From Variovorax paradoxus B4 (GTDB lineage: Bacteria > Pseudomonadota > Gammaproteobacteria > Burkholderiales > Burkholderiaceae_C): a DNA stretch of 64,000 bases. Both the position numbers and the translations under genes were made by a program. The stretch covers positions 1,116,001-1,180,000 of the forward strand of contig NC_022234.1 in assembly GCF_000463015.1 (NCBI RefSeq). Reading direction: 5' to 3'. Under the pieces are notes generated by a model. It was not told the DNA's origin and searched no databases. It saw only the letters and a list, made by a program, of their open reading frames with translations. Positions 16,244-27,584 of the stretch are shown in pieces (the stretch's first letter is position 1; each line of letters begins with the position of its first letter).

Positions 16244-17224
16244 ATGCCAACCCCAAGACGCCATTTCCTGCGCCGCTCGGCCGCCCTGCTCGCCACGGCC
16301 GGCTTCGCGGCCCTGGTGGGCATCGCCCACGCGGCCTACCCCGAGCAGCCGATCAAGCTGGTCGTGGGGTTTCCGCCCGGCGGCGGCGGCGACCTGTACG
16401 GCCGCGTCATCGCCAACGCGCTCGGCAAGCACATCGGCCAGGCGGTGATCGTGGACAACAGGGCGGGCGCCGGTGGCAACATCGCGGCCGAGACCGTGGC
16501 GCATGCCCGGCCCGACGGGTACACGCTGATCCTCGCGATGAGCGGCAACATGGGCAGCGCGCCTGCGATCCGCGGCAACCTGCCCTACAAGGTGCCTGAA
16601 GACTTCGTGCCCATCGCGCAGCTGGTCGAGACGCCCTTCGGCCTGATGGTGAGCAGCAACTCGAAGATCGAGACCCTGAAGGACTACGTGGCCGAGGCCA
16701 GGGCCGGCAAGCTCACCTATGCGTCGACCGGCACCGGCGGCGCGGCGCAGATCGTGATGGAGATGGTCAAGCAGCAGGCCAGCCTGGACATCCTGCACAT
16801 TCCCTACAAGGGCTCGGGCCCCGCGCTCAACGACCTGTTCGGCGGCCAGGTGGCGAGCTTCTTCGCGCCCTATACGCCGCTCATGGGGCAGATCGCCGGC
16901 GGCAAGCTCAGGCTGCTGGCCGTGAGCAGCCCGCGCCGCGTGCCCTCGTTGCCGGACGTGCCCACGCTCAAGGAGTCGGGCATCGACGTCGTGATGACGC
17001 AGTGGTATGGCCTGGCCGCGCCGGCCGGCACGCCGAAGGAGGTGGTCGACACCATCGGCCGCGCCGTCGAGAAAGCCATGAAGGATCCGGAGCTGCTCAG
17101 GGTCTACCGCGCCGACGGTGCGCGGGAGGCCACGCTGACCGGCGACCAGTTCCGCGACTTCATCGTGAAGGACGTTGCGAACTACAGGCGCGCGGTCGAG
17201 CGCGGCGGATTGAAGGCCGAGTAG
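16244..17224 (+). CDS. Bug-family tripartite tricarboxylate receptor (second of pair)
   Basis: This 326-residue periplasmic receptor has an RRHFLRRSA N-terminus, hydrophobic stretch and AHAAYPEQPIKLVVGF cleavage region. It repeats the same motif chain as the receptor at 14362, including GGGGDLYGRVIANALG, VDNRAGAGGNIAAETVA, a GTGGAAQIVMEMVKQ stretch and MTQWYGLAAPAGTP. The two are recent paralogues; many stretches are identical. It starts 23 bp after the sulfurtransferase and precedes the molybdoenzyme by 14 bp. The pair may bind two stereoisomers or two related acids. The twin Arg near the start could suggest Tat export, but the classical motif is not complete. Confidence 0.9.
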   Translation: MPTPRRHFLRRSAALLATAGFAALVGIAHAAYPEQPIKLVVGFPPGGGGDLYGRVIANALGKHIGQAVIVDNRAGAGGNIAAETVAHARPDGYTLILAMSGNMGSAPAIRGNLPYKVPEDFVPIAQLVETPFGLMVSSNSKIETLKDYVAEARAGKLTYASTGTGGAAQIVMEMVKQQASLDILHIPYKGSGPALNDLFGGQVASFFAPYTPLMGQIAGGKLRLLAVSSPRRVPSLPDVPTLKESGIDVVMTQWYGLAAPAGTPKEVVDTIGRAVEKAMKDPELLRVYRADGAREATLTGDQFRDFIVKDVANYRRAVERGGLKAE

Positions 17225-17238
17225 GAACCGTCCACACC

Positions 17239-19545
17239 ATGCCCGCCGACACGCCCACCTTCCATCCGCACAGCGCCCACTGGGGCGTGTTCTCCGCCGC
17301 CTGGGACGGCCACACGCTCGCGGTGAAGCCGCACCCGGGCGATCCGGATCCGAACCCGCTGATCGACAACTTTCCCGATGCGCTGCGCCACCGGGCGCGC
17401 GTGACCACGCCGATGGTGCGCAAGGGCTGGCTGGAGCGCGGCCCGGGGCCCGATCCGATGCGCGGCCAGGACGCCTACGTGGCCATGCCCTGGAGCGAGG
17501 TGCTCGACCTGCTGGCCGCGGAGCTGCGGCGGGTGAAGGAGCGGCACGGCGCGGGCGCGGTCTTCGGCGGCTCCTACGGCTGGTCGAGCGCGGGGCGCTT
17601 CCACCATGCGCAGAGCCAGGTCCACCGCTTCCTCAACACCACGCTCGGCGGCTACGTGCGCTCGGTCAACAGCTACAGCGCCGGCGCCTCGGGCCCGATG
17701 CTGCCGCACATCCTCGGCTCGATGGAAGAGGTGGCGCGCCGCAACGTGACGTGGGAACAGATCGTCGCGCACACCGACGTGGTGCTGGCCTTCGGCGGCA
17801 TGGCGCTGAAGAATTCGCGCGTGGCCTCGGGCGGCATCAGCCGCCATGTCGAGCGCAGCTCGATGCGCGAAGCGGCGGCGCGCGGCTGCCGCTTCGTCTG
17901 CATCAGCCCGCTCAGGAGCGACCTGCCCGACGAAGCGCAGTTCGAATGGCTCGCCGCCAGGCCCAACACCGACACGGCGCTGATGCTGGCCCTGGTGCAC
18001 CAGATCGTCAGCGACGGTGCGCACGATCGCGAGTTCATCGCCCGCTGCTGCGACGGCTGGGCCACGTTCGAGGACTACCTGATGGGCCGCAGCGACGGCG
18101 TGGCCAAGAGCTGCGCCTGGGCCGCACCGATCTGCGACCTGCCGGCGCAGCAGCTCGTCGACCTCGCCCGCTCGCTCGTCGGCAAGCGCACGCTGGTGGT
18201 CGTGTCGCACTCGCTGCAGCGCGCCGAGCACGGCGAGCAGCCGGTCTGGATGGGTGCGGTGCTGGCCGCGGCGCTGGGCCAGCTGGGCCTGCCCGGTGGC
18301 GGCTACAACTACGCGCTGGGCACGCTGGCGCACTACGGCAAGCGCAACAACGCCGTGCTGGCGGCCGCACTGCCCCAGGGCAGCAACGGCGTGAAGGAAT
18401 TCATCCCGGTCGCACGCATCAGCGACATGCTGCTCAACCCGGGCCAGCCCTTCGACTACAACGGCCAGCGCCGGACCTATCCGCACATCCGCCTGGCCTA
18501 CTGGGCGGGCGGCAACCCGTTTCACCACCACCAGGACCTGGCGCGGCTGGCCGAGGCCTTCCGTACCCTCGACACCTTCGTCGTGCACGAGATCGCCTGG
18601 ACCGCGACCGCGCGCCATGCCGACATCGTGCTGCCCAGCACCATGACGCTGGAGCGCGAGGACATCGGCGCCACGCCCACCGACCCGATGGTGGTGGCGA
18701 TGCACCGCATCGCCGAGCCCTGCGGCCTGGCGCGCGACGACTACGACATCTTCTGCGAACTGGCCCGGCGCCTCGGCGCGCTCGAGGCCTTCAGCGAGGG
18801 CCGCACGACGCGCGAATGGCTGGCGCACCTGTACGAACGCACCCGCACCGGGCTCGAGGACCTGGGCCTCGAAGCGCCGGACTTCGAGACCTTCTGGCAG
18901 CGCGGCGAACTCATGCTGCCGCAGCGCGACGACGACGGCGGCATGCTGCGCGCCTTTCGCAACGACCCCACCGGTGCGCCGCTGCCCACGCCGAGCGGCA
19001 AGGTGCAGGTCAGCTCGCCGGCCGTTGCCGCCTTCGGCTACGCCGACTGCCCGGGCCATCCGGCCTGGCTTGCGCCGAGGTTCGCGCCGACCGCCGAGCA
19101 TCCGCTGTGGCTGGTCGCCAACCAGCCGCACACCAAGCTGCACAGCCAGCTCGACTTCGGTGCGCACAGCCAGGCCAGCAAGCGCCGCGGCCGCGAGGTC
19201 TGCACGCTGCACCCGACGGCCGCCGCAGCGCGCGGCATCGAGGAGGGCGACATCGTGCGGCTCTTCAACGAGATCGGCGCCTGCCTGGCCAGCGCCCACC
19301 TGTGTGCCGACATGCGCGAAGACGTGGTGCAACTGCCGACCGGCGCCTGGTACGACCCGGCGACGGACGACCAGGGCCGCCCGATGTGCGTGCACGGCAA
19401 CCCCAACGTGCTGACCCGCGACATCGGCACCTCGTCGCTCGCGCAAGGCTGCGCAGGACAGCTCAGCACGGTGCAGATCGAACGCTACGACGGCGCGCTG
19501 CCGCCGATCCGCGCGTTCGAGCCGCCGGCGGGTGCTGCCATCTGA
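17239..19545 (+). CDS. Molybdopterin oxidoreductase, BisC/TorA/DMSO-reductase family
   Basis: This 768-residue molybdenum enzyme of the DMSO reductase family has no N-terminal Fe-S cluster cysteines and no Tat signal, like cytoplasmic biotin sulfoxide reductase BisC. Visible landmarks are GGSYGWSSAGRFHHAQSQ and VNSYSAGA, where the Ser of the latter segment is the expected Mo ligand, then MGAVLAAALGQLGLPGGGYNY, WAGGNPFHHHQDL, a TATARHADIVLPSTMTLER segment and the C-terminal MGD-binding SQASKRRGREV. It is the last gene of the cluster starting at 11445. The family reduces S- or N-oxides or works in reverse as dehydrogenases, which again suggests a sulfur- or nitrogen-containing substrate. Confidence 0.88.
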   Translation: MPADTPTFHPHSAHWGVFSAAWDGHTLAVKPHPGDPDPNPLIDNFPDALRHRARVTTPMVRKGWLERGPGPDPMRGQDAYVAMPWSEVLDLLAAELRRVKERHGAGAVFGGSYGWSSAGRFHHAQSQVHRFLNTTLGGYVRSVNSYSAGASGPMLPHILGSMEEVARRNVTWEQIVAHTDVVLAFGGMALKNSRVASGGISRHVERSSMREAAARGCRFVCISPLRSDLPDEAQFEWLAARPNTDTALMLALVHQIVSDGAHDREFIARCCDGWATFEDYLMGRSDGVAKSCAWAAPICDLPAQQLVDLARSLVGKRTLVVVSHSLQRAEHGEQPVWMGAVLAAALGQLGLPGGGYNYALGTLAHYGKRNNAVLAAALPQGSNGVKEFIPVARISDMLLNPGQPFDYNGQRRTYPHIRLAYWAGGNPFHHHQDLARLAEAFRTLDTFVVHEIAWTATARHADIVLPSTMTLEREDIGATPTDPMVVAMHRIAEPCGLARDDYDIFCELARRLGALEAFSEGRTTREWLAHLYERTRTGLEDLGLEAPDFETFWQRGELMLPQRDDDGGMLRAFRNDPTGAPLPTPSGKVQVSSPAVAAFGYADCPGHPAWLAPRFAPTAEHPLWLVANQPHTKLHSQLDFGAHSQASKRRGREVCTLHPTAAAARGIEEGDIVRLFNEIGACLASAHLCADMREDVVQLPTGAWYDPATDDQGRPMCVHGNPNVLTRDIGTSSLAQGCAGQLSTVQIERYDGALPPIRAFEPPAGAAI

Positions 19546-19579
19546 ACGAAAGTTCCAAGAACAGGTATGTGAAGAGCAA

Positions 19580-19595
19580 CGTGACTTTCTTCACT
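19580..19595 (+). promoter_or_regulatory. Conserved AGTGACTTT-type box 1 (regulator promoter)
   Basis: CGTGACTTTCTTCACT is the weakest of three copies of a 16-bp box (AGTGACTTTnnnCACT). It lies 36 nt ahead of CTAGATT, the counterpart of the CTAAATT found 37 nt after the other two boxes. It precedes the GTG start of the NarL-type regulator at 19630, which suggests autoregulation. Confidence 0.5.
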
Positions 19596-19629
19596 TACCT
19601 TCCCGCCCGGAACCGCTAGATTCGGTGGC

Positions 19630-20343
19630 GTGAGTACCGACGAATCGAACCGCCCCCCCAAACACGGCGCTCCTGCCGATGTACGGCGGCCGCGCGCCAT
19701 TCTGGTGGTGGACGATCACGACCTGGTGCGCCTGGGTGTGCGTGCACTGCTGGAAGCACAGTCCTCCCCATCGGGCGAGACTGTCGAGGTCTTCGAGGCC
19801 GGCAGCCTCGCCGAGGCCTTGGCCCTGTATGAAAGAGTCCGGGACGCCATCGACCTGGTGCTGTTGGACCTGGCCTTGCCCGACACCCAGGGCCTCAGCG
19901 GCCTGGTGGAATTTCGCGCTCGCTATCCTGCCGCGCGCATTGTTGCGCTCTCCGGTTCCGGCACCACCTCGCTCGCCCAGAGCATGGTCGCCCAGAACGC
20001 GCTGAGTCTGGGCGCCAGCGCCTTCCTGCCGAAATCGGCCAACCTCAAGGAAGTGGTGAGCTTCATCCGAGCCTGCGGACTGCTCGGAAGCGACGCCATC
20101 GACGGCTCGCCTCGTCCATTGACCACGTCGATCCGGCCGGTCAAACCCTCCCATGACCGCGCCTGGCAGGCGCTTGCACCGCGACAGTTGCAGGTGCTCC
20201 AGTGGATACTGGAGGGAAAGACCAACAAGGAGATTGCGGAGGCAGCGACCCTTGGCGAAGGCACCGTCAAGAACTACGTCTCGACCATCCTCTTGCTGTT
20301 CGGCGTACGCTCTCGTGCCGAGTTGATCAGCAGCTTGCGCTAA
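19630..20343 (+). CDS. NarL/LuxR-type response regulator
   Basis: This 237-residue response regulator has a receiver domain starting at ILVVDDHDLVRLGV, with acidic pocket residues Asp28-Asp29, phospho-acceptor Asp80 in LVLLDLALPDT and Lys135 in FLPKSANLKEV. The LuxR-type helix-turn-helix follows (LAPRQLQVLQWILEGKTNKEIAEA, GTVKNYVSTILLLFGV, about 183-230). The start codon is GTG. The hybrid kinase follows after 61 bp and is the obvious partner. The gene has its own copy of the box that also precedes the two downstream lipoprotein genes, so it probably controls those genes and itself. Confidence 0.9.
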   Translation: MSTDESNRPPKHGAPADVRRPRAILVVDDHDLVRLGVRALLEAQSSPSGETVEVFEAGSLAEALALYERVRDAIDLVLLDLALPDTQGLSGLVEFRARYPAARIVALSGSGTTSLAQSMVAQNALSLGASAFLPKSANLKEVVSFIRACGLLGSDAIDGSPRPLTTSIRPVKPSHDRAWQALAPRQLQVLQWILEGKTNKEIAEAATLGEGTVKNYVSTILLLFGVRSRAELISSLR

Positions 20344-20404
20344 GCACCGCCTGCGCGCAGCGAAATACATAGGCAGGGACTCAACCCTGCAGGGAGGCAA
20401 TTCG

Positions 20405-22225
20405 ATGAGCGACATCGTGTCGAAGCATCTGGCTGTCGACGCCACGCTGGGCCTGCGCATATTGCGCGAGCACGTGGCGTCGGTCTACGCCGGTCACAGC
20501 ACGGCGATCCTGGCCCATTTCGGCTTTGCCGCCGCGCTGGCCATCTTCAGCTACTCACGTCTCGACTATCCGTGGTTGATGTGGTGGCTGCTCGTTCTTG
20601 CGGCCGTGGACCTGTACGCGTTGCTCGCACCGCGCTGGACCCCTGCCACACCGATGTCCGACAGCCCCTATTGGGCACGCAAGTACGCTCGCCTGGTCAC
20701 CATGGTCAGCGTCGCCACGGCTCCGGCGCCCTTGTTCCTTGTGTCGACGACGGATCTGGTCATGACCACCGTGTTCACGGTGGTCATCATCGGCAGTTGG
20801 ACGCGAGCGGTGCAGGCACGATGGCCTCTGAAGCCGGCCATGTTCGGATACGGCGTTCCCATGATGACGGGCCTCATTGCCGCCCTGGTCTGGCATGGCA
20901 GTGCCCTGAACTGGTTCCTCGCCGCATTCGGAACCGTCAACCTGGTGCTCACGTTCCGCGCCGGGCTGCAGGAGAACCGGCGGCTGACCGAATCGCTGGT
21001 CCTGCGCTTCGAGAACGAGGCCCTGGCCGCTCGCCTGAGCGAGCAGATTGCAGCCACCGAGCGCGCCAGCGCCGAAAAAACCCGCTTCCTGGCCACCGCC
21101 AGCCACGACCTGCGCCAGCCGATGCACGCCATCGCATTGTTCGGGGCCGCTCTGGAAAATGCCCTGGACGGCCGCCCCGAAGTGAAGAATGCCGAGCGCC
21201 TGATGCGCGCGGTCGACACCCTGGGCGCCTCGCTGAACACCATGCTCGATATCTCCCGCCTCGACGCAGGGGTGGTCGTTCCCGATCCATGCGCTCTGGA
21301 ACTCGATGCGCTGTTTCGCCCGCTCAACCACACCTTCTCGGCACAGGCCGACCAGAAGAACCTGCAGCTGCGCATTCGCGCCAGCGGGCTGTGGGTGCAC
21401 AGCGACCCGCAGCTCCTGTATCGCATGCTCTCGAACCTGGTCGACAACGCATTGAAGTACACGCAGCAAGGCGGCGTGACCGTGACGGCACTTGCGCGCG
21501 GCGATCTTGTGTGGATCGAAGTGCGCGACACCGGCATCGGCATTGCGCCCGCGCAGTTGGAACGCATCTTCGAGGAGTTCTACCAGATCGGGAATCCGGG
21601 ACGCGACCGCTCACGCGGCCTGGGCATCGGGTTGTCGATCGTGCAGCGCCTGTCGCATCTTCTCGCGCATCCGGTACAAGTGCGCTCGCGCCCGGGCCGC
21701 GGCACGTGCTTTCGCCTGGTGGTTCCGATGGCCAAGGCCTCACTGGATGCGCCCGCGGATCTCCTGCTTCAGGATCTCGAGTCGCCCGTACGGCATCGCT
21801 TCACGATTCCGGATCTGCGCGGGCCCATCCTGTTGATCGACGACGAGTCCGAGATCCGGGAAGCCATGACGGCACTGCTGCAAGGCTATTCCCTCGATGT
21901 GGTGGCCGTGGCCAACGAAGCCGCCGCGGTCGAAGCATTGGCGCACCCTGATGCCCAAGCCAGGCCGTTCGCACTGATGCTGTGCGACTATCGGTTGGCC
22001 GACGGCGTGGACGGGCTCGATGTCGGGCAGCGCCTGCGCGAACGCTTTCGGCTCGATGCACCGCTGCTTCTGATCACCGGCGAGACTGCGCCCGAGCGGC
22101 TGCAGCGCGTACGCGCCTCGGGTGTGCCGGTGCTGTTCAAGCCCGTGAGCGCCGCAACGCTCCTGCAAGCCATGGCCGAGCTCGCGCCTGCAGGCCACCG
22201 ACGCGCGCATCGACGCGACAAGTGA
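20405..22225 (+). CDS. Hybrid sensor histidine kinase with C-terminal receiver
   Basis: This 606-residue kinase starts with an integral-membrane sensor of about five or six hydrophobic segments (residues 35-185). A HisKA box, FLATASHDLRQPMHAIALFG, has its acceptor at His234. The ATPase domain follows (MLSNLVDNALKYTQ, DTGIGIAPAQLERIFEEFYQ, GLGIGLSIVQRL), then a receiver domain (ILLIDDESE, Asp528 in LMLCDYRL, KPVSAATL). The DLRQPMHAI form is typical of hybrid kinases paired with NarL-type regulators. No periplasmic loop of useful size is seen, so the signal may be sensed in the membrane. Its stop codon TGA forms part of box 2 (AGTGACTTT) of the following promoter. Confidence 0.9.
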   Translation: MSDIVSKHLAVDATLGLRILREHVASVYAGHSTAILAHFGFAAALAIFSYSRLDYPWLMWWLLVLAAVDLYALLAPRWTPATPMSDSPYWARKYARLVTMVSVATAPAPLFLVSTTDLVMTTVFTVVIIGSWTRAVQARWPLKPAMFGYGVPMMTGLIAALVWHGSALNWFLAAFGTVNLVLTFRAGLQENRRLTESLVLRFENEALAARLSEQIAATERASAEKTRFLATASHDLRQPMHAIALFGAALENALDGRPEVKNAERLMRAVDTLGASLNTMLDISRLDAGVVVPDPCALELDALFRPLNHTFSAQADQKNLQLRIRASGLWVHSDPQLLYRMLSNLVDNALKYTQQGGVTVTALARGDLVWIEVRDTGIGIAPAQLERIFEEFYQIGNPGRDRSRGLGIGLSIVQRLSHLLAHPVQVRSRPGRGTCFRLVVPMAKASLDAPADLLLQDLESPVRHRFTIPDLRGPILLIDDESEIREAMTALLQGYSLDVVAVANEAAAVEALAHPDAQARPFALMLCDYRLADGVDGLDVGQRLRERFRLDAPLLLITGETAPERLQRVRASGVPVLFKPVSAATLLQAMAELAPAGHRRAHRRDK

Positions 22226-22236
22226 CTTTCGGCACT
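22221..22236 (+). promoter_or_regulatory. Conserved AGTGACTTT-type box 2
   Basis: AGTGACTTTCGGCACT has inverted AGTG/CACT ends and is followed 37 nt from its start by CTAAATT, a likely -10 region. The same box and spacing recur at 23513. It overlaps the kinase stop codon and precedes the CshA-repeat lipoprotein gene. Confidence 0.65.
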
Positions 22237-22270
22237 ATGGCGCCTTCTTCGCTTCTCCTAAATTGACACG

Positions 22271-22287
22271 GGGCCGGATCTCGGCCC
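22271..22287 (+). promoter_or_regulatory. Conserved 5'-leader hairpin of the first lipoprotein mRNA
   Basis: GGGCCG-gatct-CGGCCC forms a 6-bp stem with a 5-nt loop followed by TTT. It lies about 12 nt after the presumed -10 and 28 nt before the ATG at 22315. The second lipoprotein gene has the same stem, loop length and trailing CCCTTT at the equivalent place, so it is more likely a leader element than a terminator. Confidence 0.5.
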
Positions 22288-22314
22288 TTTGACACTCAAC
22301 AGGGAGAGAAACGA

Positions 22315-23460
22315 ATGAAGAAGAATCCATGGGCAATGGGTGCGGTGGCCGCGGCCGTCGCAGCGGCAATGGTGGCATGCGGAGGAGGCGGCTCGGGCGG
22401 CGGCGGCTTTGCAGGCGGGCTCCCTGCAGGCGCAGGCACCCCCGCTGGCGGCACAGGCAGCCCTACCGGCACCACCCCAGTGGCAACCAATGACAGCGCC
22501 AGCGGCCAGGCCGGTGCCAGCGTCACCATCAGCGTGCTCGACAACGACCAGGATGCCGACGGCAACCTCGATCGCAATTCGGTGCGCTTCGTGCAGCCAC
22601 CGGCCGGCGCCACCTTGTCCGGCGATGGACGCAGCCTGCAGGTGCCCAGCGAGGGAAGCTGGCAGGTCGGCAGCGAGGGGGCGGTGGTCTTCACTCCCGC
22701 GAGCGGCTTCACCGGCAGCCCGACGGTGGTCAGCTACACCGTGTCCGATGCCACCGGGCTCACGTCCGCGGCCGCGACGATCACGATCACCGTCACAGTG
22801 ACATCAGCCACCAGTTCGGCGGCCTGCTTCAACGAGGGGTTCTTCCGGACGGGAACGACCTTGGATTTCGAACTCACCGTCAGCGGGGATGGCGCTACGC
22901 CGCCTCGGCGCCTCGTGAGCACCGTCACGGGACCCAAGGAGTTCAATGGCGCGGCGACCATGGAAACGAAAGTGGATTTCTACGGAGACGACGGCAGCTA
23001 CGGAGGAACCAACATGGGCTACAACGCCTTTGTGGACGGTTTCGTGGTGAGCTACGGCATGACCGGAGGCAACGTCCGCCAGACGATCAACCCGCCGCGT
23101 CGGCAACCGGTCGCCATGGAGCCCGGACAGACCTTCGATTTCACGTACACGGCCAGGAACGAATACGCCGACCGCGTCGAAGAAGGTACGACGACGACGT
23201 CCTACACCTACGTGGGCCGCGAGACCCTCCAGAGCGCTGTGGGAACCTTCGAGGCCTGCAAGTTCACCACCCATCAAGTGGACACTCCCATCACCTCCTC
23301 GCCCACGACACATACCTTCGACAAGGTCAGCTGGGTTGCTGCCGAGGGACCGTATCGGGGACATGAGCTGCGCACGGAGGTTGTGGGGCAGTACCCGAAC
23401 GCGCTCACGATCCGCCAGGTGCTGCAAACCACCAAGATCAGCGTTTTCGACATCAAGTGA
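22315..23460 (+). CDS. Surface lipoprotein with CshA-type repeat
   Basis: This 381-residue lipoprotein has the lipobox MVAC with lipidated Cys22. A Gly-rich flexible linker (residues 23-55) follows, then one Ig-like repeat of the CshA fibril/adhesin type (SVTISVLDNDQDADGNL, SLQVPSEGSWQV, VVFTPASGFTGSP, VSYTVSDATGLTS). The C-terminal ~220 residues, from ACFNEGFF on, form an unrecognised beta-rich domain with two Cys. It probably sits in the outer membrane as an adhesion or matrix component. Asp at position 2 of the mature protein is absent (Gly follows the Cys), so outer-membrane sorting is expected. It is the first structural gene controlled by box 2. Confidence 0.75.
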   Translation: MKKNPWAMGAVAAAVAAAMVACGGGGSGGGGFAGGLPAGAGTPAGGTGSPTGTTPVATNDSASGQAGASVTISVLDNDQDADGNLDRNSVRFVQPPAGATLSGDGRSLQVPSEGSWQVGSEGAVVFTPASGFTGSPTVVSYTVSDATGLTSAAATITITVTVTSATSSAACFNEGFFRTGTTLDFELTVSGDGATPPRRLVSTVTGPKEFNGAATMETKVDFYGDDGSYGGTNMGYNAFVDGFVVSYGMTGGNVRQTINPPRRQPVAMEPGQTFDFTYTARNEYADRVEEGTTTTSYTYVGRETLQSAVGTFEACKFTTHQVDTPITSSPTTHTFDKVSWVAAEGPYRGHELRTEVVGQYPNALTIRQVLQTTKISVFDIK

Positions 23461-23512
23461 GATCCTGAGGGCTGTTGTGATCCGGGCAACGGGCGCTGGC
23501 ATCAGCGCAACA

Positions 23513-23528
23513 AGTGACTTTAGACACT
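23513..23528 (+). promoter_or_regulatory. Conserved AGTGACTTT-type box 3
   Basis: AGTGACTTTAGACACT is 13 of 16 identical to box 2, preceded in both cases by ACA. CTAAATT begins 37 nt after its first base, exactly as for box 2. It precedes the CsgG-like lipoprotein gene at 23606. Confidence 0.65.
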
Positions 23529-23561
23529 GTGGGCAATCTTGCCTTCCCACTAAATTTGCGC

Positions 23562-23580
23562 AGGGCCGCATTCCGGCCCT
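23562..23580 (+). promoter_or_regulatory. Conserved 5'-leader hairpin of the CsgG-like mRNA
   Basis: AGGGCCG-cattc-CGGCCCT forms a 7-bp stem with a 5-nt loop followed by TTC, between the presumed -10 and the Shine-Dalgarno GGGGGAGG. It matches the hairpin at 22271 in stem sequence and position. Confidence 0.5.
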
Positions 23581-23605
23581 TTCGCAACCAACGGGGGAGG
23601 ATCGC

Positions 23606-24538
23606 ATGAAGAAGTCCACAGGCAAGCCACGCCAGCAGCGCGCGCTTTCAAGGCCGGCCATGGCCACGGCAGCAGCGGCAACGCTGCTGGCTCTTGCCGG
23701 TTGCCAGAACATGCCCGCGCTCGACATGCAGATGGGCAGCCAGTCGGCCAAGACAGTTGCCACAGGCAGCGCCGCGGGCTCGGCCACCTCCGGTGAGAGC
23801 AGCGCGCTCGAGCGCTGCGATTCGCCGCTGGGCACCGTCTCGCTGATCGAGAACGTCAATGCCGGCTGGTACACCGTGCTCACCGGCGAATACAAGCTGC
23901 CGCCCACGGCCAACCTGCTGCGCCTCTTGGTGCAGCAGTCGAACTGCTTCGTGGTGGTAGAGCGCGGCGCCTCGGGCATGAACGCCATGACGCGCGAGCG
24001 CGCGCTCATGCAGTCGGGCGAAATGCGCGGCGGCAGCAACTTCGGCCGCGGCCAGATGGTGGCTTCCGACTACGGCCTCTCGCCCGAGATCGTCTTCAGC
24101 AACAACGACGCGGGCGGGCTCGGCGGCACCATTGGCGGGCTGATCGGCGGTGGCCGGGGCCGCGCCATCGCGAACCTTGGCGCCAGCCTCCAGACCAAGG
24201 AAGCCGCGGCCCTGCTGACGCTCATCGACAACCGCTCGGGCGTGCAGGTCGCGGCTTCGGAAGGCAGCGCCTCCAAGACCGACTTCGCGGGCTTCGGCGA
24301 CCTGAGCGGCTTGCGCGGCGGCGGCAACGTCGGCGGTTACACGCGCACGCCGCAGGGCAAGCTGATCGCGGCGGCCTTCATGGACGCATTCAACCAGATG
24401 GTGCGCTCGCTGCGCAGCTACAAGGCGCAGACGGTGCGCGGCCAGGGCCTGGGCGGCGGCGGCCGGCTTGGCGTGGATGGCGGTGCGGCGCCTTCGCAGA
24501 CTTCGGCACAGCCTGCGTCAAATCGCAGAAGAAGGTAA
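23606..24538 (+). CDS. CsgG/HfaB-family outer-membrane lipoprotein
   Basis: This 310-residue lipoprotein has the lipobox LAGC (Cys33). The central part resembles the CsgG/HfaB family: LGTVSLIENVNAGWYTVLT, NLLRLLVQQSNCFVVVERG, MNAMTRERALMQSG and ASLQTKEAAALLTLIDNRSGVQ, ending with AFMDAFNQMVRSLRSY. CsgG forms the secretion pore for curli amyloid; HfaB helps anchor the holdfast. No curlin or CsgE/F gene is visible, so the exported partner is unknown, and the adjacent CshA-repeat lipoprotein is a candidate. A Gly-rich segment (about 170-190) and a disordered tail are unusual. It follows its own box/leader and overlaps the converging RidA gene by 21 bp. Confidence 0.8.
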   Translation: MKKSTGKPRQQRALSRPAMATAAAATLLALAGCQNMPALDMQMGSQSAKTVATGSAAGSATSGESSALERCDSPLGTVSLIENVNAGWYTVLTGEYKLPPTANLLRLLVQQSNCFVVVERGASGMNAMTRERALMQSGEMRGGSNFGRGQMVASDYGLSPEIVFSNNDAGGLGGTIGGLIGGGRGRAIANLGASLQTKEAAALLTLIDNRSGVQVAASEGSASKTDFAGFGDLSGLRGGGNVGGYTRTPQGKLIAAAFMDAFNQMVRSLRSYKAQTVRGQGLGGGGRLGVDGGAAPSQTSAQPASNRRRR

Positions 24539-24952
24539 GTAGCCCTGTGCCTGCCGGGATGGCACGGTGCGGACGATGGCCACGGCTTCGATCTCGACGC
24601 GCACCGGCGCGATCAAGCCGGCCAGCACGGTCGATCGCGCCGGTGCACGGTCCGGCCGGAAGCGCTCGCCGTAGGCCGCATTGAAGAGCGGATAGTCGGA
24701 GCCATCCACCAGCCATGCCGTGGTCTTGACCACGTCCTCGAGCCTGCAACCGGCGCGCGCAAGGATCTCCTCGATCATGTCGATCGCCGCATGCGTCTGC
24801 CCGGCGATGTCGGGGGCCGCGGGCTGGCCGTTGCGCATCGGCACCTGCCCCGAAACGAACACCAGGGGCCCCTCGGCGACCACCGCCGCCGAGAGGGGCT
24901 GCACCTGACCGGCACGCACCACCGGCGGTCCCACGCGTGAAATGCGGTCCAT
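24518..24952 (-). CDS. RidA family protein (enamine/imine deaminase)
   Basis: This 144-residue protein has the Rid family layout: LVFVSGQVPMRNG, DIAGQTHAAIDMIEEILARAG, DVVKTTAWLVDGSDYPLFNAAYGERF, then ARSTVLAGLIAPVRVEIEAVA. The usual substrate-binding Arg in the RST segment and the Glu of VEIEA are present. Rid proteins hydrolyse 2-imino or enamino acids left by PLP enzymes and amino-acid oxidases. It lies 5 bp downstream of the Bug receptor in a minus-strand operon that also encodes an FAD amino-acid oxidase, so removal of the imine product is a logical job. ATG at 24952 gives the family start. Confidence 0.88.
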   Translation of the reverse strand: MDRISRVGPPVVRAGQVQPLSAAVVAEGPLVFVSGQVPMRNGQPAAPDIAGQTHAAIDMIEEILARAGCRLEDVVKTTAWLVDGSDYPLFNAAYGERFRPDRAPARSTVLAGLIAPVRVEIEAVAIVRTVPSRQAQGYLPSSAI

Positions 24953-24957
24953 GCGCT

Positions 24958-25953
24958 TCAGTCGGGCTTGGCGCCGGAAGCTTTCACGATGCGGGTCCAC
25001 TTGTCGATCTCGCCGCGGATGAAGGTGCCGAAATCGACCGCGCTGCTGCCCCCGAGCGTGAAGCCGCGCGAGCCGAAATACTCCTGGATGTCGGCGCTCG
25101 CCAGCACCTTGTTCACCTCGCGGTTGAGCTGGTCGACCACGGCCGGCGGCGTCCCTGACGGCGCGAACAGGCCCTGCCACGACAGCGCCTCGAAGCCGGG
25201 GTAGCCGCTCTCGGCGACGGTGGGCACGTTCGGCAGCATCTTGTGGCGCTGTCTCGAGGTCACGGCAATCGGCATCACCTTGCCCGCTTCGACCTGGGGC
25301 CAGACCACGAGAAAGTCGCCGAACATGGTGTCGATCTGCCCGCCCATGAGATCGGTCAGCGCGCCCGCGCTGCCGCGGTAGGGAATGTGCAGCAGCGAGG
25401 CCTTGGCCGAGAGCTTGAACATCTCGCCGGTCAGGTGCATCGAGGTGCCGTTGCCGGGCGAGCCATAGCTGATCGAGCCCGGCCTGGCCTTGGCGGCGGC
25501 AACGACCTCCTGCACGGTCGCCGCCGCAAAGCCCGGATGGCGCACCAGCACCAGCGGCGCCGACACCACCAGCGAGACGGGCGCGAAATCCTTGGCCACG
25601 TCATAGGGCAGCTTCGGGTACAGCGCGCCGCTGATCGCGTTGGTGCCGGTCACCCCCATCAGCAGCGTGTAGCCGTCGGGCGCAGACTTGGCGACATGGT
25701 CCGCACCCAGGGTGCCGCCCGCGCCCGCGCGGTTGTCGACGATCACCGGCTGGCCGAACGCGACGGCCAGCTTCTCGCCGATGCGGCGCGCGAGCACATC
25801 GGTGCTGCCGCCCGGCGGGAAAGGCACGACGATGCGGATCGGCCTGGAGGGATAGGCCTGCGCCATCGCCCATGCAGGCATCAGCGCGGCCAGGGCCAGG
25901 GTCAAGGCGCCGCGAAGGGCGAAACGCCTGCAGCGGGAGTGAATGGATTTCAT
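24958..25953 (-). CDS. Bug-family tripartite tricarboxylate receptor
   Basis: This 331-residue periplasmic receptor has a signal peptide ending AMAQAYPSRPIRIVVPF. The family motifs are clear: PFPPGGSTDVLARRIGEKL, VIVDNRAGAGGTLGADHVAK, HIPYRGSAGALTDLMGGQID and PNVPTVAESGYPGFEA. Its start overlaps the hydantoinase B stop by 4 bp (ATGA), so the two are translationally coupled. It probably binds the hydantoin- or pyroglutamate-like substrate of the adjacent enzymes. It differs clearly from the pair at 14-17 kb (PFPPGGS versus GFPPGGGGD). Confidence 0.9.
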   Translation of the reverse strand: MKSIHSRCRRFALRGALTLALAALMPAWAMAQAYPSRPIRIVVPFPPGGSTDVLARRIGEKLAVAFGQPVIVDNRAGAGGTLGADHVAKSAPDGYTLLMGVTGTNAISGALYPKLPYDVAKDFAPVSLVVSAPLVLVRHPGFAAATVQEVVAAAKARPGSISYGSPGNGTSMHLTGEMFKLSAKASLLHIPYRGSAGALTDLMGGQIDTMFGDFLVVWPQVEAGKVMPIAVTSRQRHKMLPNVPTVAESGYPGFEALSWQGLFAPSGTPPAVVDQLNREVNKVLASADIQEYFGSRGFTLGGSSAVDFGTFIRGEIDKWTRIVKASGAKPD

Positions 25954-27584
25954 CGGTTCGTTCCTTGGTTCGCCGGATCGGCGGGGTTCCTCGACAGAGA
26001 TTGCGCGGAGGCCGGCGCTTCGCCCCAGCCGCCGCCGCCGGCGGTTTCGATCACGAGGCGATCGCCGGCATGCCAATCGATGCGTGCCCTGGCACCCAGC
26101 ACCTCGACGCTGCCGTCGGCGCGCAGCATCCGCGCGGCCGACGATGCGCCCGGCCCGCCGCCCTGGACACCTCGCGCCTGGCTGGCATGGCGCTCGCCGC
26201 GGTAGGACACCTGTGCGCGGCCCTCGAGCAGGCGATAGACGCGGCGCACGCCGTGGCCGCCGCAATGCAGGCCGCCACCGCCCGAGCCTTCGCGGATGGC
26301 GTAGCACTCCACGCGCAGGGGCGCCTCGGTTTCGAGCACTTCGACGGGCGTGTTGCGTGCGTTGCCGATATCGGTCGAGACACCCGATCGCCCGGGGCCG
26401 AGCGCGCTCGCACCGGCGCCGCTCGCGATGATTTCGGTCAGCATCCAGCGCTGTCCGTCATCGCGCACGCCGCTGATCGACATGACCGTGGCCACGCCCG
26501 CATGCGGCGCCACCGACACGCCTGCACCGGCCTGCGACCATGCGCCGAGCATGGCGTTGCAGGCCAGCTTGACCGTGGCCGTGCGCGCATTCACCGCGGC
26601 GGGCAGATCGGGGTTCACGACGCTGCCCGGCGGCAGGTGCAGCCTGAGGGGCGCGAGGCAGCCGGCGTTGTTCGGCGCTTCGGGCGCGAGCGTGCGCATG
26701 AAAAAAAGCGCCGCGGAGAGCACGCTGGCCGGCGATGCGTTGACGGGCCCGCGCACCTGCGGCGAGCTGCCCGCGAAGTCGATGTCGATCGCATCGCCCT
26801 GCTTGCGCAGCCTGACCGCGATGCGCACCGGCACGGCATCGATGCCGTCGCCGTCGAGCTGGTCTTCCCACGTCCACTCGCCATCGGGCGCGGCGCGCAG
26901 GGCCGCGCGCGTCATCTGCTCGGCCTGCGCGATCAGTGCATCGCAGACCGGTGCGAACAGCGCGCCCGTGCGCACCGCCAGCGCGCCGAGCTCGCGCGCG
27001 CCCAGGCTCACGGCCGACCATTGCGCCGCGAGGTCGCCGCGCAGGTTGGCCGGTGTACGGCTGTTGGCTTCGAGGATCGCAGTCACGCCGTCTTCGGGGC
27101 CGGCCGCCGTGCGCCAGCGCAGCGGCGGCAGGCGCAGGCCTTCCTGGTAGATCTCGGTGGCATTCGGCGGGATCGATCCCGGCGCCATGCCGCCCACGTC
27201 CTGGTGGTGCATGCAGGTGGCCGCGAGCGCGATCACCACGCCCTGCTGCAGCACGGGGCGCACGACGATCAGGTCCGGCAGGTGCGTGCCGCCCGACCAC
27301 GGATCGTTCATCAGGTAGCCCTCCCCTTGCGCCATGCCGGCGGCCGGAAAGCGGCGCAGCACGCCCGCGACCGCGGGAATCAGCGAGCCCAGCAGCAGCG
27401 GCAGCGAACGCGCCTGCGCCACCAGCCGGCCATCGGGCAGGAACAGCGCGGCAGCACAGTCGCCGCCCTCGCGGGCAATGGAGGAATAGGCGGCCCGCAT
27501 CATGCCGCCCTGCATGCGATCGACCGCGCCCTGCAGCGCAAGCCGCACCGGTTCCATCTGCGCGGTGACGTGTGCGGCGTTCAT
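25950..27584 (-). CDS. Hydantoinase B / 5-oxoprolinase beta-like subunit
   Basis: This 544-residue protein of the hydantoinase B family has YSSIAREGGDCAAALFLPDG and LPLLLGSLIPAV at the N-terminus, MNDPWSGGTHLPDLIVVRPV, HHQDVGGMAPGS, then DIDFAGSSPQVRGPVNAS. The C-terminal region has REGSGGGGLHCGGHGVRR and ETAGGGGWG. The HxxDxGG and DP-GGTH elements are family metal/substrate sites. Together with hydantoinase A it performs ATP-dependent opening of a five-membered lactam such as hydantoin, N-methylhydantoin or 5-oxoproline. It lies 55 bp downstream of the A-subunit gene. Confidence 0.9.
   Translation of the reverse strand: MNAAHVTAQMEPVRLALQGAVDRMQGGMMRAAYSSIAREGGDCAAALFLPDGRLVAQARSLPLLLGSLIPAVAGVLRRFPAAGMAQGEGYLMNDPWSGGTHLPDLIVVRPVLQQGVVIALAATCMHHQDVGGMAPGSIPPNATEIYQEGLRLPPLRWRTAAGPEDGVTAILEANSRTPANLRGDLAAQWSAVSLGARELGALAVRTGALFAPVCDALIAQAEQMTRAALRAAPDGEWTWEDQLDGDGIDAVPVRIAVRLRKQGDAIDIDFAGSSPQVRGPVNASPASVLSAALFFMRTLAPEAPNNAGCLAPLRLHLPPGSVVNPDLPAAVNARTATVKLACNAMLGAWSQAGAGVSVAPHAGVATVMSISGVRDDGQRWMLTEIIASGAGASALGPGRSGVSTDIGNARNTPVEVLETEAPLRVECYAIREGSGGGGLHCGGHGVRRVYRLLEGRAQVSYRGERHASQARGVQGGGPGASSAARMLRADGSVEVLGARARIDWHAGDRLVIETAGGGGWGEAPASAQSLSRNPADPANQGTNR

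Follow-up and report, generated by a model that had tools for sequence, protein, structure and literature searches.

A predicted autoregulated NarL-type two-component system with a small lipoprotein regulon in Variovorax paradoxus

The window analyzed here is a 64,000-nucleotide stretch of the Variovorax paradoxus B4 genome (contig NC_022234.1, positions 1,116,001 to 1,180,000), and within it a 16-bp box recurs in front of three forward-strand genes, which encode a NarL/LuxR-type response regulator, a lipoprotein containing a CshA domain, and a lipoprotein of the CsgG/HfaB family, with a hybrid sensor kinase encoded among them. The locus raises the question of whether the box is an operator through which the two-component system controls its own synthesis and that of the neighboring lipoproteins, and of whether those lipoproteins form a secretion module related to curli. 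A sequence-only reading had proposed a self-contained, autoregulated system controlling an adhesion/export module with a CsgG-like pore but no curlin, possibly an undescribed matrix-secretion system. Our analysis points with good confidence to an autoregulated NarL-type two-component system that would control a small lipoprotein regulon by class II activation, both the binding and the activation being deduced from the arrangement and distribution of the box; the curli-like half of the proposal is weak.

A 16-bp box at a fixed distance from the -10 element

The pattern AGTGACTTTnnnCACT is matched exactly at 22221-22236 (AGTGACTTTCGGCACT, the TGA of which terminates the kinase reading frame) and at 23513-23528 (AGTGACTTTAGACACT), and it is matched with one mismatch, a C rather than an A as first base, in the regulator promoter at 19580-19595 (CGTGACTTTCTTCACT), which bears out the threefold repeat originally described, with one of the three copies inexact. 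There are three box matches with up to two mismatches in the window compared with a shuffle mean of 0.32, and three were reached in none of 100 shuffles. The sequence CTAAATT begins, as had been read, exactly 37 nt from the first base of the box at both 22221 and 23513, with the -10-like elements TAAATT at 22259-22264 and 23551-23556 (offset 38 in each case). The regulator promoter, for which no such element had been pointed out, contains CTAGATT beginning 36 nt from the start of its box, with a -10-like TAGATT at 19617-19622 (offset 37). The two window lipoproteins have promoter-plus-leader segments that agree at 82 of 110 positions, from the box through the first codons, and judging from this likeness they are probably duplicated copies of one cassette; their equal spacing is therefore not by itself independent evidence, and the independent evidence for the box is that from other genes and other genomes.

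A search of the 7.15-Mb genome with the original pattern, allowing one mismatch, returns four sites and no match to the backward pattern used as control, and the fourth site precedes a further Gly-rich lipoprotein, encoded on the other replicon. With the search pattern RTGACTTTNGNCACT and up to one mismatch there are 10 sites compared with 4 backward controls, and 6 of the 10 have TANNNT 37-39 nt on; all six precede two-component operons or lipoproteins. These six are the three window sites together with C2:4796872 and C2:5170716, which precede Gly-rich lipoproteins related to one another (97 of 317 positions identical), and C2:4799488, which precedes a second regulator, 67% identical to the window regulator and accompanied by its own kinase. 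The remaining four sites have no TANNNT at 37-39 and, being one-mismatch sites that lack a spaced -10, look like chance matches and were set aside. The predicted regulon of this genome would thus be six promoters, those of two autoregulated two-component operons and four lipoproteins, and the description of the system as self-contained is nearly right, in that three of the six promoters are inside the window and three are outside it.

The same geometry extends across the collected loci, where TANNNT is present at offset 37-39 in 130 of 161 distinct boxes, against a frequency of about 0.08 per offset at 45-69, and the bases between box and -10 vary from locus to locus between two fixed ends. 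The box has the form of an incomplete inverted repeat, TGaC-N4-GnCA, inside AGTG...CACT, and its middle G, a dyad partner that the search pattern leaves free, is present in 135 of the 161. (Totals of distinct boxes in this work, 161, 200, and 203, differ because the later counts include more loci; duplicates and contexts shorter than 130 nt were excluded.) With the transcription start placed 12 nt downstream of the first -10 base, a prediction from the -10 element, the center of the box falls at about -42 (-42.5). A site centered near -42 occupies the position typical of class II activators, and the box center therefore has class II activator geometry relative to the predicted start.

Co-occurrence of the box with the regulator

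The rarity of the box in the genome and its fixed distance from the -10 are joined by a third computed observation, its co-occurrence with the regulator. Among 100 genomes of the genus, the 53 with a regulator match at 1e-45 contain 230 boxes compared with 11 backward controls, and 46 of the 53 have at least two boxes; the 47 without the regulator contain 20 boxes compared with 14 controls, with at least two boxes in a single genome. Since members of a genus are related, the comparison was repeated over 250 genomes of the family, representing 141 genera, of which 9 have the regulator, 3 of them from Variovorax and 6 from five other genera. In these six, 16 boxes and no controls were counted, and every one of the six has a box at its regulator locus, whereas the 241 family genomes that lack the regulator contain 81 boxes and 71 controls (totals added by eye). 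The middle G is present in 14 of the 16 boxes of the former group and in 29 of the 81 of the latter.

Of 80 regulator loci found, the 45 named loci with 46-89% regulator identity were analyzed apart from 35 at 30-41%. The sequence-only reading had staked its case on conservation of the box upstream of orthologous operons, and such a box, with at most one mismatch, is kept in front of the regulator at 44 of these 45 loci, L236 being the exception. A box also lies behind the kinase, 2.2-2.9 kb on, in 33 of the 45, and one of the 12 misses, L255, ends at a contig edge. The 300 nt upstream of the regulator are free of boxes in all 35 distant loci, as is expected if only the subfamily of the window regulator reads the box; a one-mismatch site occurs in one of them, 2.35 kb farther on. 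The named loci with the regulator include Xenophilus, Ramlibacter, Moraxellaceae, and two assemblies labeled Rhizobium or Rhizobiales; three loci with these last labels (L248, L249, and L258; Rhizobium/Rhizobiales and Moraxellaceae) have the regulator and boxes at 46-63% regulator identity, and they may represent horizontal transfer or mislabeled draft contigs.

When the best CsgG-like locus of each genome is considered, a box is found upstream in 17 of 19 regulator-bearing genomes and in 0 of 11 regulator-less ones. Of the 33 genomes that have a CsgG-like match, 30 enter this count, G003, G045, and G052 standing outside it, and two-mismatch sites were kept only where TANNNT followed. The co-occurrence of regulator and box, together with the fixed -10 spacing, strongly supports the proposal of an autoregulated two-component system that would control its neighboring lipoproteins.

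The two-component pair, its predicted targets, and mechanism

The regulator (19630-20343, 237 aa) is made up of a receiver and a GerE domain, which score 6e-16 and 1e-14, respectively, and its gene adjoins in tandem that of the hybrid sensor kinase (20405-22225, 606 aa), which has HisKA and HATPase domains and a C-terminal receiver. The phospho-acceptors, placed by motif, are present at about His234 in HisKA and about Asp528 in the receiver of the kinase, and at Asp80 in the regulator. The N-terminal input region of the kinase is hydrophobic, with several candidate membrane segments and no named sensor domain.

We propose that the membrane-bound kinase would, upon a signal, lead to phosphorylation of the regulator, which would bind as a dimer to the 16-bp box about 42 bp upstream of the predicted start and recruit RNA polymerase there by class II activation, activation rather than repression being what this position suggests. 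The targets would be the operon itself and, also within the window, the YmcC-like/CshA and CsgG-like lipoproteins; outside the window they would comprise the two Gly-rich lipoproteins and the paralogous two-component operon, so that the signal would alter which lipoproteins are present at the outer membrane or possibly the cell surface. With a box in its own promoter, the operon would be expected to show positive autoregulation and to respond in a switch-like manner, and because the two paralogous systems have nearly the same box, cross-regulation between them is likely.

A spaced -10 is present for 143 of 203 distinct boxes, and the next gene behind these is the regulator in 27 cases, the kinase in 1, a CsgG-like gene in 32, a member of the CshA-lipoprotein family in 12, and another lipoprotein frame in 32, where many of the box rows are mutual orthologues, a lipoprotein frame is called by a simple rule rather than a trained predictor, and ftsY-antisense frames ("MAHSTPPLAV...") are counted apart. 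The same caller finds a lipoprotein frame behind 3 of the 60 boxes that have no spaced -10. Among the six loci from other genera, counted with the two loci of G094 left aside, an exported-looking frame was recognized by eye behind the box in L338 (two lipoproteins), L339, L340, and L341, and none was seen by eye in L336 or L337.

The lipoproteins and the question of a curli-like system

The first of the two window lipoproteins (22315-23460, 381 aa) has its lipobox Cys at position 22, a Gly/Pro-rich linker, a single CshA/Big_9 domain at residues 54-160, and a C-terminal beta domain at about 165-381. It had been described as a CshA-repeat lipoprotein, which is right for residues 54-160 and overlooks the conserved C-terminal domain; no CshA-type repeat array is found in it with Pfam or NCBIfam, only the single repeat, which scores 43.8 bits with Pfam (above the cut-off of 27) and 47.2 bits with NCBIfam (below the cut-off of 60). 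Residues 165-381 have no Pfam match over cut-off, and their best fold matches are YmcC-like lipoproteins (4fvs, 3fzx, and 2in5; YmcC is also known as GfcB), but at 12-16% identity and with Z scores that tie with those of generic beta barrels (NalP, KdgM, and FapF). A phmmer search with this lipoprotein gave three matches at E 0.2-0.4, which are not credible. A relative carries, at about 20112-63500 of G014:C2, one uninterrupted reading frame of 16,240 aa with many CshA/Big_9-like stretches.

The CsgG/HfaB-family lipoprotein (23606-24538, 310 aa from the ATG at 23606, lipobox Cys33) is encoded by a gene that stands alone. On the possible but doubtful reading that this is a curlin-free relative of curli, a CsgG-like pore would export the Gly-rich lipoproteins or another matrix protein. 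The protein itself matches the CsgG Pfam family at 21.6 bits against a cut-off of 20.8, 16 of 17 family members match it at E up to 1 (best 2.8e-9), and its promoter type is common to surface-type lipoproteins, one of them CshA/Ig-like; two stretches that presumably correspond to the membrane hairpins of CsgG seem similar in length to them. Against an export role, curlin repeats (PF07012) are found in 0 of 100 genus genomes, which bears out the original expectation of no curlin, and CsgE and CsgF each in 0 of 61, the E. coli control being positive each time. Alignment of the family with E. coli CsgG by hhalign gives no significant match (probability 0.9 of 100), the solved-structure sequences hold no credible match, and 6 of the 17 family members also match LpoB. 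The co-regulated proteins, moreover, carry their own lipobox signals, and their transport to the outer membrane would presumably not depend on such a pore. Of the proposed CsgG-like pore, membership in the CsgG Pfam family is supported, and the case for a pore and a secretion system is weak, given a lone gene, the lack of CsgE, CsgF, and curlin in the searched genus genomes, and a second copy without a box. That second copy (G000:C2:50995-51876, L172) is 85% identical and adjoins a parB-like gene, as judged by eye, and 18 relatives from the same genus have at least two CsgG-like matches, some of them fragments. The profile search of solved-structure sequences, with a 17-member alignment, had as its sole match one at E 0.65 in the signal-peptide region, and an AlphaFold model from a 5-sequence alignment (pLDDT 29) was discarded.

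Weighing of the regulatory reading

Several results weigh against autoregulated control of a lipoprotein regulon through the box. Kinship within the genus means that the within-genus counts are not independent, and only five further genera with the regulator were found. Genome G003 has no regulator match and keeps a box before a truncated CsgG-like frame (L102), which looks like decay following loss of the regulator, or else counts against the pairing of box and regulator. The CsgG-like genes of regulator-less genomes may be the other paralogue, in which case the contrast at these loci partly reflects loss of the whole module. Regulator-bearing G094 lacks an exact box, although two one-mismatch boxes are present at one of its regulator loci, the second locus having none, and regulator-less G081 has two boxes. 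Of the 143 spaced boxes, 26 lead to no recognized class of gene and 13 face ftsY on the opposite strand, and 60 of the 203 distinct boxes have no spaced -10, many of them from regulator-less background genomes and some from regulator-bearing ones. Finally, six boxes (L081, L119, L126, L146, L150, and L161) lie 11 nt closer to a TAGAAT (offset 27), near a start codon, two of them, L081 and L119, with a LysR-like frame recognized by eye; this geometry would not be that of class II activation, and these promoters are possibly subject to repression or give leaderless mRNA.

Two further observations concern boxes of this kind. G003 also has a one-mismatch box before a CshA-type lipoprotein (L040), and at six loci (L095, L108, L113, L127, L137, and L145) an unspaced box is embedded in strongly conserved sequence, about 250-260 nt 5' of a DeoR-like frame identified by eye, and is possibly an unrelated conserved element.

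An unlinked or paralogous response regulator could also bind the box, and the window operon would then be merely one of its targets, since the regulator promoter carries the box as any target would, and the genome has at least two paralogous regulators, of which the acting one need not be that of the window. We regard this as unlikely, because the box falls to background when the regulator family is absent, in the 47 genus and 241 family genomes described above, and because the gene pair linked to the box in the five other genera and in the named loci is of the window type, regulator plus kinase. Far less probable is that the box forms part of an alternative sigma-factor promoter: the highly fixed distance from box to -10 would suit such an element, but the TGAC core lies about 32 nt from the -10, twice the usual distance between -35 and -10 elements in both sigma-70 and ECF promoters, and the box is dyad-like, as its middle G indicates, and co-occurs with a NarL-type regulator. 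That the repeated box is a mere trace of promoter duplication without regulatory meaning, as the similar leaders of the two lipoproteins might suggest, is hardly tenable: the regulator promoter shares little with the lipoprotein promoters beyond box and -10, and as a whole explanation we take it to be refuted by variable spacers with fixed ends across loci and by the co-occurrence of box and regulator.

Comparison with known systems

The autoregulated two-component system proposed here resembles other NarL/FixJ-type systems with hybrid kinases in its domain make-up and in a dyad-like site placed for class II activation. The kinase scores 309 bits with the NCBIfam NahK/ErcS C-terminal model (cut-off 400) and the regulator 94 bits with ErdR (cut-off 390), both below cut-off, and unlike in the NahK/ErcS-ErdR type the input region is here hydrophobic without a named sensor domain and the targets are lipoproteins. 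Compared with curli secretion, which comprises CsgG, CsgE/F, and the curlins CsgA/B, the common point is a CsgG-family lipoprotein, and the differences are those of gene content and profile alignment set out above. Plasmid relatives in Caballeronia and Burkholderia are annotated as CsgG/HfaB family.

In V. paradoxus EPS, the two-component system ShkRS affects biofilm formation and swarming (PMC3283707); its two genes are described there as running in opposite directions, whereas the window pair is in tandem, and four ShkRS primers published there have no match in the collected loci, the EPS genome as such not having been searched. The BiofilmReg operon of Burkholderia contaminans, which is linked to biofilm, likewise brings together a response regulator, a kinase, and a lipoprotein-type (DUF4136) protein (PMC5192318). 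It differs in comprising four genes, among them those for a peptidoglycan-binding protein with a FecR domain and an NtrB-like kinase, and CsgG is not mentioned in the text of that paper. Going by titles and the openings of abstracts, none of the listed papers on Variovorax, CsgG, two-component, lipoprotein, and autoregulation topics describes the box or the regulon. An operator common to a two-component promoter and adjacent targets is of a known kind, and what appear new, within that literature, are the particular regulon, its operator, and its lipoprotein output.

A possible output slot behind the kinase

In seven named strains (L220, L227, L235, L237, L238 from V. gossypii, L250, and L252) no lipoprotein gene follows the box and -10 located behind the kinase; in its place is a unit of about 85-115 nt, which lies about 2.55-2.62 kb after the regulator start, is purine-rich, and ends with a strong GC hairpin and a T run before the convergent ftsY. 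This unit may encode a small RNA driven by the regulator. Each of the four loci scanned (L227, L235, L250, and L252) resembles BjrC68 of Rfam, with scores under the gathering threshold of 39 bits (best 33.5) and little covariation.

A tentative extension, which we consider possible rather than probable, is that regulator, kinase, and box form a cassette, in most copies with a box of its own and an output slot directly behind the kinase, that rewires to whichever exported lipoprotein adjoins it or, in some strains, to a small RNA, and that the several copies a genome may contain, with almost the same operator, could read each other's sites. The output slots of the window, occupied by a CsgG-like protein without curlin and by an adhesin-type lipoprotein that is YmcC-like, might then belong to a new surface-matrix assembly pathway. 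The recurrence of the slot behind the kinase, with varied lipoproteins or perhaps a small RNA in it, offers a natural experiment in how two-component systems gain targets. More generally, a small regulon with its operator, a spacing rule, and a probable regulator has been obtained from sequence alone in Variovorax, a soil and root-associated genus for which, to our knowledge, few such operators are known, and orphan lipoprotein families (Gly-rich, curlin-free CsgG-like, and those with YmcC-like domains) become testable through a single regulator deletion.

Other features of the locus

Just past the predicted transcription start, each window lipoprotein leader has a stem-loop, GGGCCG...CGGCCC at 22271-22287 and a like element at 23563-23579, both on the forward strand and both conserved in sequence with little covariation. 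The GGGCC...GGCCC stem-loop followed by TTT is found at the predicted start of the lipoprotein mRNA in 19 of 20 compared leaders, and as a conserved structure it was rejected for too few compensatory changes among the 20. An Rfam scan of window positions 18000-26000 gave a single chance-level match and nothing else. Upstream of the regulator, the gene at 17077-19542 encodes a bisC-family molybdopterin oxidoreductase, with no link to the locus seen. The nearest named locus is that of V. paradoxus NBRC 15149, with a regulator identity of 89%, and two V. paradoxus replicons cover 98% of the locus at 91-92% DNA identity.

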